Shown one piece after another: positions 57,242 through 63,785 of a stretch of DNA of 64,000 nt (positions within the stretch are counted from its first letter, which is position 1; the number at the start of each line of letters is the position of its first letter). A program made the position numbers and the translations under genes. This stretch comes from Carnobacterium funditum DSM 5970 (GTDB lineage Bacteria > Bacillota > Bacilli > Lactobacillales > Carnobacteriaceae). Location of the stretch: positions 806,001 to 870,000 of the forward strand of contig NZ_JQLL01000001.1 in the NCBI RefSeq assembly GCF_000744185.1, written 5' to 3'. Below the pieces are notes generated by a model. The model saw only the letters and a program-made list of their open reading frames with translations, had not been told where the DNA came from and did no database searches.

Positions 57242-57309
57242 ATTTGTGACTCGCTTTTTAAAGTTGACGGTACTATAGTTTAATTAAACTAGTTAAAGGA
57301 GTGAAAAAT

Positions 57310-57900
57310 ATGAGTGAAGAATTTGAAATAGAGTTTAAAAATAAATTGTCTGCTAAGGATTATTATAGGCTTCTTAATTATTATAAGGCTGAAGAAGGAG
57401 ACTTTTTTATACAAGAAAATCATTACTTTGATTCTACTCTCTGGGAGTTAAAAAAAATGCATGCTGGCTTAAGAATTAGAGTACTTGATGATACAGCTGA
57501 ATTAACACTTAAAACACCACTTAACAAACACTTATTAGAAACAACAGACTACTTATCAATTATTGAATCTGAAGATTTATTATTAAAAGATCAGATTTAT
57601 TTTACAGGTCATGTAGCAAGAAAACTAAGAGAACTAAATATTAATCCAAAAGATATGCATTTAATTGGCTCGCTTAAAACTAAACGTTTTGAAAAACAAA
57701 CTTCTGTGGGGTTAATCGTACTAGATCAAAGCTTTTATGGAGAACAAACAGATTTTGAATTAGAGTTCGAAGTACATGAAGCTCAAACCGGAGAAATCGC
57801 TTTTGATACTTTTTTAAAAAAGCATCAGTTAAAAAAAAATCGTTCAGAAAATAAAATTGTCAGGATGATCAATAATTCACTAAAAAATAAAGCTGAATAA
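57310..57900 (+). CDS. yjbK: CYTH domain protein YjbK
   Basis: 196 residues of the CYTH (triphosphate tunnel) superfamily. The N-terminal ExExK motif is EIEFKNKL; charged pairs in LRIRVLDDTAELTLKTP, KTKRFEK, LVLDQSFYGEQTDFELEFEV continue the tunnel pattern. The family binds triphosphates; a specific substrate is unknown, though it sits next to the alarmone synthetase as in Bacillus. ATG at 57310 with AAAGGAG 9 bases upstream; the GTG at 57301 overlaps that site. Confidence 0.92.
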   Translation: MSEEFEIEFKNKLSAKDYYRLLNYYKAEEGDFFIQENHYFDSTLWELKKMHAGLRIRVLDDTAELTLKTPLNKHLLETTDYLSIIESEDLLLKDQIYFTGHVARKLRELNINPKDMHLIGSLKTKRFEKQTSVGLIVLDQSFYGEQTDFELEFEVHEAQTGEIAFDTFLKKHQLKKNRSENKIVRMINNSLKNKAE

Positions 57901-57911
57901 AAAAATAGAAA

Positions 57912-57928
57912 TGTGACTAAAATGTGAC
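57912..57928 (+). promoter_or_regulatory. TGTGAC-N5-TGTGAC direct repeat upstream of yjbH
   Basis: Perfect hexamer repeat with 11-bp periodicity, ending 129 bases before the yjbH ATG. Its architecture is that of sites for OmpR-family response regulators such as WalR or PhoP. A related repeat is found at spxA (63624-63640). Confidence 0.45.
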
Positions 57929-58057
57929 TGCCACCCTTTTTTTAAAATCTAGTATGAGACTTATTGATACTATTTTTTTTGAATCTTTGATAAAATAAGT
58001 ATGTTGTAAATAAAACAACAATGTTTTTAATACTATACAAAGTAAAGGTGAAATAAG

Positions 58058-58726
58058 ATGTTATCAAGTACGCATTCCAGTAAAGGGAATCAATACAAAC
58101 AAGTGACAGAAATTTATTTGTTCATCAACCCTATTGGATCTGCATGTTATCAAGCGGAGAAAGGATTGTTGGACTTTATCGAGTCAAACGAAAAAAAAAT
58201 TCATTTCCACTTTATCCCTGTCCACAATTTCAAGACATTTTCTGATTACATGAAAGCAAAAAAATTACCCAAAAATGACTTAGATTTAAGAAACAAACAT
58301 TTCTTTCAAATCTACGAAGCGTGTCTAGCTTATGCCGCTGCATCAATGCAAGGTAAAAAGAAAGGCCGTATATTCTTAATGGCCTTACAACAAGCTATTG
58401 CGATTGACAATCAGCCCTTCTCACAAAAACTAGTTTATGAAACGGCCTTGAAATCTAATTTAGATATCCCTATGTTTTCTGAAGATAAACAATCAGAATT
58501 TGCTAAAACCGCTTTTGAAGCAGATCAGAAAGTAGCGCGTGAAATGCATGTTCTTTCTAACCCTTCTTGCGTCGTCTTCAATGATCAGAGCTCCAATCAC
58601 GGATTATTAATTGAAGAGGATATCAATTTTGAAACGCTACAAGCATTGTGCAATGAAGGCAAAGATAAGAATCAGCTAGCTTTTTCTGGTAGAAATAAAA
58701 AAAAGAATCATTTGTTTGTTCTTTAA
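58058..58726 (+). CDS. yjbH: ClpXP adaptor SpxH/YjbH, DsbA-like fold
   Basis: Thioredoxin-fold adaptor that presents Spx to ClpXP. EIYLFINPIGSACYQAEKG aligns with the DPLCPECW active-site region of the Bacillus protein, but only the second cysteine remains (Cys-x-x-Cys is replaced by GSAC), and the Cys/His-rich zinc N-terminus is missing. This matches lactobacillale homologues. 222 residues. AAAGGTG lies 9 bases before the ATG. Between yjbK and pepF, within 5 kb of its expected client spxA. Confidence 0.88.
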   Translation: MLSSTHSSKGNQYKQVTEIYLFINPIGSACYQAEKGLLDFIESNEKKIHFHFIPVHNFKTFSDYMKAKKLPKNDLDLRNKHFFQIYEACLAYAAASMQGKKKGRIFLMALQQAIAIDNQPFSQKLVYETALKSNLDIPMFSEDKQSEFAKTAFEADQKVAREMHVLSNPSCVVFNDQSSNHGLLIEEDINFETLQALCNEGKDKNQLAFSGRNKKKNHLFVL

Positions 58727-62162: not shown

Positions 62163-62212
62163 CAAAAAAAGCAATTTCCAGAAATTTAAATTTCTGGAAA
62201 TTGCTTTTTTAT
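62163..62212 (-). terminator. Terminator of mecA
   Basis: Perfect palindrome AGCAATTTCCAGAAATTT / AAATTTCTGGAAATTGCT flanked by A7 and T6. Confidence 0.9.
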
Positions 62213-63100: not shown

Positions 63101-63499
63101 TTAGTAACCCACGATTCTTTGAGCTCGTAACAATTCGATTGCACGTACTTCTCTTGGCAAGAAACGACGAATTTCATCTTCATTATATCCTACTTGCAAT
63201 CTCTTTTCATCTACCATAATCGGACGACGCAACAATCCAGGATTTTCTTGAATCAGAGCAAAAAGTTCTTGAAGTGGTAATTCTTCCAAATCAATATTTA
63301 ACTCTTGAAAAGCCTTCGATCTTGTAGAAATAATCTCTTCAGTTCCATCTTCTGTCATTCGTAAAATAGATTTAATCTCAGGAATATCCAACGGCTCTGA
63401 AAAAATATTTCGTTCTTTGTAAGTAATGTTGTTTTCTTCTAGCCAAGCACGAGCCTTTCGACATGAAGTACAACTTGGTGATGTATAAATTGTAACCAT
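63101..63499 (-). CDS. spxA: Transcriptional regulator Spx
   Basis: ArsC-like protein that binds the RNA polymerase alpha C-terminal domain and redirects transcription under thiol stress. The redox switch C10-TS-C13 is intact, and [29 protein letters not shown] is the conserved C-terminal half. 132 residues, standard. AGGGGAG lies 8 bases before the ATG. It is turned over by YjbH-ClpXP, and yjbH is encoded close by. Own terminator and a promoter region with repeated TGAC units. Confidence 0.97.
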
Positions 63500-63587
63500 A
63501 TGTTATTCTCCCCTTTTTATTCGGATTGATCTAGTCAATAAATAGTAACTATTAATGGCACCTTTAACTTGCTAGCTTACTCTATTT

Positions 63588-63640
63588 ATTATATATCATA
63601 TTCCAAGAAATTACTACACTTTTCGTCATTTTTCCGTCAC
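63588..63640 (-). promoter_or_regulatory. spxA promoter region with 11-bp-spaced repeats
   Basis: Minus strand: GTGACG-N5-ATGACG (63640-63624), then after 5 bases TGTAGT, and a TATAAT at 63593-63588 without a good -35. Direct hexamers at 11-bp spacing ahead of a -35-less promoter suggest an OmpR-type activator. The rest of the 63500-63846 gap holds only this region and a terminator. Confidence 0.5.
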
Positions 63641-63785
63641 TTTTAAAAAATAAATAGACCTTTAAACTTGATTTTTTTTGTTTATTCGCATTAATAACCA
63701 AAAAAACGTTATATGATTAGCACTTACTATTTAAATGCAGATATTTATAATCATTATAATAAGATATTTTATAAAATGTAATAAT

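Follow-up and report, generated by a model that had tools for sequence, protein, structure and literature searches.

Upstream of spxA and of yjbH, the genome of Carnobacterium funditum DSM 5970 carries pairs of TGAC units spaced exactly 11 bp apart. YjbH is the adaptor that targets Spx to ClpXP. Are these two repeats regulatory sites, and could one protein read both of them? The analysis started from a single stretch of 64,000 nucleotides (positions 806,001 to 870,000 of contig NZ_JQLL01000001.1), which is called the window below. A sequence-only reading of the window had pointed out both repeats and suggested a shared OmpR-type regulator. Its observation is confirmed, and its interpretation is partly supported.

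Repeats and promoters of spxA and yjbH

The features of the two loci are as follows (window coordinates).

63101..63499, minus strand: spxA open reading frame, 132 amino acids (NCBIfam Spx models, best E 1.5e-67; Pfam ArsC family)
63588..63593, minus strand: predicted -10 of spxA, TATAAT (sequence and conservation)
63611..63616, minus strand: hexamer TAGTAA where the -35 of spxA would lie, with a 17-bp spacer, inside a conserved block
63625..63641, minus strand: direct-repeat element of spxA, AGTGAC-GGAAA-AATGAC, predicted regulator site centred at -52 (sequence and conservation)
57301..57900, plus strand: CYTH-domain gene, ending 11 nt 5' of the yjbH element (Pfam PF01928)
57912..57928, plus strand: direct-repeat element of yjbH, TGTGAC-TAAAA-TGTGAC, predicted regulator site centred at -83 (sequence and conservation)
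57988..57996, plus strand: predicted extended -10 of yjbH, TGATAAAAT
58058..58726, plus strand: yjbH open reading frame, 222 amino acids, Spx adaptor of the Thioredoxin_5 family (Pfam PF13743, E 1.6e-49)

The last gene is of the Thioredoxin_5 family, which includes YjbH, and we take it to be yjbH. Between the coiA-like and mecA genes, a terminator-like palindrome with a 20-bp stem was called on both strands (62165-62210).

Written to include the flanking G, the spxA repeat is GTGACG-GAAAA-ATGACG (63640-63624, minus strand) and ends 124 bases 5' of the ATG. The hexamer 17 bp 5' of the TATAAT is TAGTAA, which is no sigma-A -35. The sequence-only reading had described a TATAAT without a normal -35, and this holds throughout the family: at the -35 place, 17 of the 18 promoters have TAG and one has TGG, and the -10 is TATAAT in 17 and TATACT in one. 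A GTAG tetramer (ATAG in two, GTGG in one) begins exactly 24 nt 5' of the TATAAT or TATACT in all 18 family promoters. The block that ends with this tetramer adjoins the second unit of the repeat and stands where a -35 would be, though it is not one.

In C. funditum, the -35 place (63613-63624, minus strand) holds a run of A and then a GGTAGT-like block, a feature whose spacing to the -10 is exact in 18 of 18 family promoters. By eye, this feature is also present in some order-level relatives that have no TGAC repeats at spxA. The spxA promoters of a second family (f6) have TTTACA where it would be.

Alignment of the upstream regions of relatives, a check that had been proposed with the sequence-only reading, shows elements conserved at both genes in two families. 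Using a degenerate pattern built from the sites, the pair was found in all 18 spxA upstream regions of the family. Unit spacing is exactly 11 bp, with the centre at -52 or -53 of the start predicted from the -10, in 16 of the 18. The two exceptions are L021, where the units are 10 bp apart, and L027, where the element is displaced upstream to -62 by an eye count, one turn away. The second unit reads TGAC in eight promoters (including L027), TGTC in six, TGGC in three and CGAC in one, so that the exact TGAC-N7-TGAC spelling occurs in 8 of 18. In the same-genus genome G001, Spx is 98% identical. In the second family, four of six spxA promoters examined keep TTGAC-N7-TGAC-RAAA; of the two exceptions, one (L200) precedes a gene that is only 52% identical and is not the best Spx match of its genome. 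In Listeria (family f7), the repeat was not seen by eye upstream of spxA. A further block, ATGTGAAC, lies some tens of bp upstream of the spxA repeats at L012, L013, L015, L016, L019, L022, L023 and L025; by eye it is not clear upstream of spxA in C. funditum DSM 5970.

The yjbH element ends 129 bases 5' of the ATG. A related element was found with a degenerate pattern in 18 of 18 upstream regions of the family and in all five regions examined among the six second-family genomes that have the gene. The spacing of 11 bp is exact in the 18 family elements. The family spelling is TGTGGC-N5-TGTTAC in 15 genomes, TATGGC-N5-TGTGAC in two and TGTGAC-N5-TGTGAC in C. funditum, which is thus the only one of the 18 with an exact TGAC-N7-TGAC at this gene. 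All five second-family elements read TGTG(A/T)C-N5-(T/C)GT(T/C)AC. Outside C. funditum the half-sites, mostly TGTGGC and TGTTAC, also allow a reading as a loose inverted repeat, TTGTGRC-N6-GTNACAA, which is perfect in L063.

The yjbH element lies 61-62 nt from the extended -10 in each of the 23 genomes compared from the two families (sd 0.49); these -10 hexamers are predictions, made with a pattern chosen after the alignment had been inspected. Over the same 23 genomes, the distance from the -10 to the ATG varies from 52 to 123 (sd 19.5). In 22 relatives measured, the stop codon of the upstream gene lies 6-203 nt from the element (6-55 if one short reading frame is left out). The element therefore does not travel with the CYTH gene, and the combination of a fixed distance to the -10 with variable distances to the ATG and to the upstream stop identifies it as a promoter element and not a CYTH leftover. 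A role as an RNA or terminator element of the CYTH gene could be imagined from C. funditum, where the repeat follows the CYTH stop by 11 nt and is itself followed by a T-run. Besides the distances, the element has no unusual fold (z -0.64) and no Rfam match, and we regard such a role as having a negligible chance of being correct.

Background frequency of the motif

Taken by itself, the bare pattern TGAC-N7-TGAC is near background and not beyond chance. It occurs twice in the window, where 1.07 matches are expected, and 29 of 100 shuffles gave at least two. Genome-wide there are 31 matches, compared with 23 for the backward-control pattern. The sequence-only reading had cautioned that two sites might be due to chance, and for the bare motif this caution was justified. 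What goes beyond chance is the conservation at fixed promoter spacing, together with the specificity of one flanked pattern. Because the elements are conserved, with phase-locked spacing in two families, a coincidence of common tetranucleotides is rejected as the explanation of the pair; we give it only a very slight probability. The conserved feature is the architecture and not the exact TGAC-N7-TGAC spelling.

In 18 genomes the flanked pattern GTGAC-N7-TGAC-N-AAA matches 16 times and its backward control twice, and the forward matches concentrate at spx genes. Nine are at spxA promoters (eight genomes, with two copies in G003) and one is at an spx paralog (G002), so that spx-type promoters make up 10 of the 16. 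One more is at an HlyD-like exporter gene (G010). The other five comprise three coding matches (two in G014, one in G011), one intergenic match (G016) and one where a reading frame ends (G008). Within the five genomes of the genus, all six matches are spx promoters. The intergenic match (L179, GTGACAAAATTTTGACTAAA) lies about 420 bp 5' of a gene with a signal-peptide-like start and may be a further target.

Other patterns differ in how specific they are. Over 703,002 background bases, counting both strands, the degenerate patterns derived from the sites themselves gave zero and one match; in 49 control upstream regions they gave none. The looser TGTGNC-N5-TGTNAC is hardly enriched: across 19 genomes it matches 44 times and its backward control 38 times; for the 12 family genomes the figures are 26 and 16, and 11 of the 26 are at yjbH and two at exporters. 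GTGNC-N5-TGTGNC-N-AA has eight matches in 18 genomes and 18 backward (14 of the latter in three genomes), and is therefore not enriched overall. Its eight matches are at three spx paralogs and one exporter, at three places in one intergenic stretch of one genus, and once in coding sequence. The strict TGTGAC-N5-TGTGAC-RAA finds only the exporter site in G010 (one match, none backward, 18 genomes).

Elements at spx paralogs and exporter genes

We examined seven promoters of spx paralogs. Three of them carry the element (two in G002, one in G003), centred at -51 or -52. One of these, TGTGACTAAAATGTGTC, is identical to the C. funditum yjbH element at 16 of 17 positions, and the G003 element is TGTGGC-N5-TGTGGC. 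The paralog promoters of C. funditum, G001 and G004 are without the element, and that of G013 has only a looser series of units.

The element is also present at promoters of an HlyD-like exporter gene, which was recognized by a weak Pfam match. It reads TGTGACRATTTTGTGAC in G005 and G010 and AATGACAAAAATGTGAC in G014, and the sites are centred at -105 and -81. Related exporter genes of G001-G004 and G024 have no element, and the exporter gene is absent from the C. funditum genome. In three genomes of one genus (G005, G010 and G014), intergenic 11-bp repeats of the TGTGTC/TGTGAC type were seen at L263, L264 and L265, the second of which is known as a pattern match alone. They lie antisense to a cggR-like frame; we take the flanking reading frames to resemble rpoN and cggR.

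With starts predicted near 63581 (minus strand) for spxA and 58003 (plus strand) for yjbH, the centres of the two main elements, -52 at spx and -83 at yjbH, are 31 bp apart. This is about three helical turns, and therefore both elements lie on the same face of the helix. In the 49 elements compared, the third base of the half-site is T (49 and 48 cases for the two halves) and the sixth is C (49 cases for either half), bases that the selection patterns themselves favour. A weight matrix made from the spxA sites scores the yjbH sites at only p 1e-4 to 0.03 per position. Owing to these weak scores, a single reader for both genes is not proven by sequence.

Two different regulators could account for these data. 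Both elements would then be true and conserved, with GTGAC-A-tract-TGNC at spxA and TGTGGC-N5-TGTTAC at yjbH read separately, and the exact match in C. funditum would be a coincidence of drift. The weak cross-scoring is in line with this, as are the background frequency of the bare motif and the restriction of the exact yjbH spelling to one of 18 genomes. However, half-site core, spacing and orientation are alike at the two genes, the spx paralogs of G002 and G003 have yjbH-like spellings at the spx position, and both spellings occur at exporter promoters. The paralogs and exporters help in bridging the spxA and yjbH spellings, and the offset of about three turns between the centres is a further link between the two genes. 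We consider separate readers rather unlikely.

Candidate readers and the proposed circuit

Direct repeats of 11 bp are a usual footprint of OmpR/PhoB-type regulators. Both elements have direct half-sites about 11 bp apart, as expected of such sites, and an inverted reading is possible for yjbH. A reader of the OmpR type, as suggested by the sequence-only reading, stands as the natural candidate. There are ten OmpR-type regulators in the C. funditum genome, and the three other genomes compared within the genus contain close orthologs (82-97%) of six of them. One of the six is WalR, which passes its NCBIfam cut-off. The other five common regulators we take from their sequences to be ResD/SrrA-like, CesR-like, PhoP-like, LisR/ArlR-like and VanR-like. 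The presumed ArlR/LisR-like regulator is L154, present in the four genus genomes compared.

The sequence-only reading had named WalR in particular, and this is not borne out. WalR/VicR boxes are TGTWAH-N5-TGTWAH, two hexamers forming 11-bp direct repeats, according to the available portion of the source (PMC4168254). The geometry of the elements here is the same, but the half-sites are (T/A)GTGAC, TGTGGC and similar. None of the 49 elements has TGTWAH in both half-sites, the pattern by which we judged membership of the WalR regulon. The second half-site alone fits in 15 of 18 family yjbH elements, where it is TGTTAC, and in one of five second-family ones; no tabulated half-site of spxA, the spx paralogs or the exporters fits. 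WalR, also called VicR, would as the reader be one instance of the shared OmpR-type regulator and would, through a relaxed TGTWAH-N5-TGTWAH, tie spx and yjbH to cell-wall homeostasis. It is present in the genus, and degenerate VicR sites have been footprinted in S. mutans (PMC4168254). Given the half-sites, we find this identification quite improbable.

Other response regulators were considered from their own sites. Of 24 pstS-like loci, 18 have TTTACA-N5-TTTACA on the coding strand, and the remaining six have no exact copy. We take these repeats at the pst promoters to be PhoP boxes. They are likewise 11-bp direct repeats in the same genomes, but the half-site TTTACA differs from those of spx and yjbH, and PhoP was set aside as the reader. 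Upstream of htrA, a different 11-bp direct repeat, TTCA-N7-TTCA, was seen in 16 of 18 family genomes (L216-L227 and L229-L232), which suggests a separate response regulator. In none of the 18 htrA upstream regions is there a TGTGAC pair at up to two mismatches, and a regulator of htrA (CssR/LisR type) was rejected as well. As judged from these sites, WalR, PhoP and the htrA regulator would all fit poorly as readers.

The gene cydA is a target of ResD/SrrA. It is present in seven of the 18 genomes, and in these no TGTGAC pair within three mismatches was found upstream of it; C. funditum is without cydA. We also looked for autoregulation. At the regulator loci of G000-G003 (35 loci) and part of those of G018 and G019, there was no convincing TGTGAC repeat. 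The matches at regulator loci all have two or three mismatches and are mostly without placement relative to genes. One of them, which lies close to the CesR-like gene and looks alike in two sister genomes, falls within a small reading frame.

Related control of Spx has been described in other species, and the comparisons below cover the available parts of the cited papers. In S. aureus, the OmpR-type regulator ArlR binds at the promoter of spx, and its mutation lowers the level of spx mRNA (PMC6455253). This resembles the arrangement proposed here in having an OmpR-type regulator at spx, and an ArlR/LisR-like protein is found in the four genus genomes compared. Unlike what we propose, yjbH mRNA is unchanged in the S. 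aureus arlRS mutant (PMC6455253). For LisR, no consensus had been identified as of 2014, according to the portion of the source that was available (PMC4132741). In B. subtilis, the envelope-stress two-component system CssRS acts on the degradation branch of Spx and YjbH via the anti-adaptor gene yirB, as described in the available part of the report (PMC6057675). There too a two-component system touches the Spx-YjbH pair, but the route is yirB, whereas the sites predicted here are at spx and yjbH themselves. Among the titles and abstract openings examined, we found none that describes such repeats at yjbH.

We propose that both repeats are sites of one OmpR/PhoB-type response regulator, which most likely activates spxA and yjbH, so that co-induction would limit Spx. 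We put the probability of this reading at roughly 0.6. A head-to-tail dimer of the regulator would occupy two TGTGAC-like half-sites 11 bp apart. The spxA site, at about -52, would place it just 5' of a promoter that has no sigma-A -35, which it would most likely activate. At yjbH it would sit at about -83, on the same helix face as at spxA, and most likely activate there also. Spx and the adaptor targeting it to ClpXP would then be induced together, and the Spx pulse would be limited. Such a feedback would sharpen or limit the Spx response; if the same protein instead repressed yjbH, the response would be reinforced.

Spx is best known for its control by proteolysis through YjbH. As a more tentative extension, one two-component system may set both the synthesis of Spx and its ClpXP-directed destruction, by way of paired sites, at -52 of spx genes and at -83 of yjbH. 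Some duplicated spx genes would have retained the element or acquired it again, and the circuit would be older than the divergence of two families within one order. The prediction is narrow: one response regulator and two promoters in C. funditum, with spx paralogs of some sister species sharing the element. If the site is conserved at both genes, the balance between the regulator and its adaptor would itself be under the control of an external signal.
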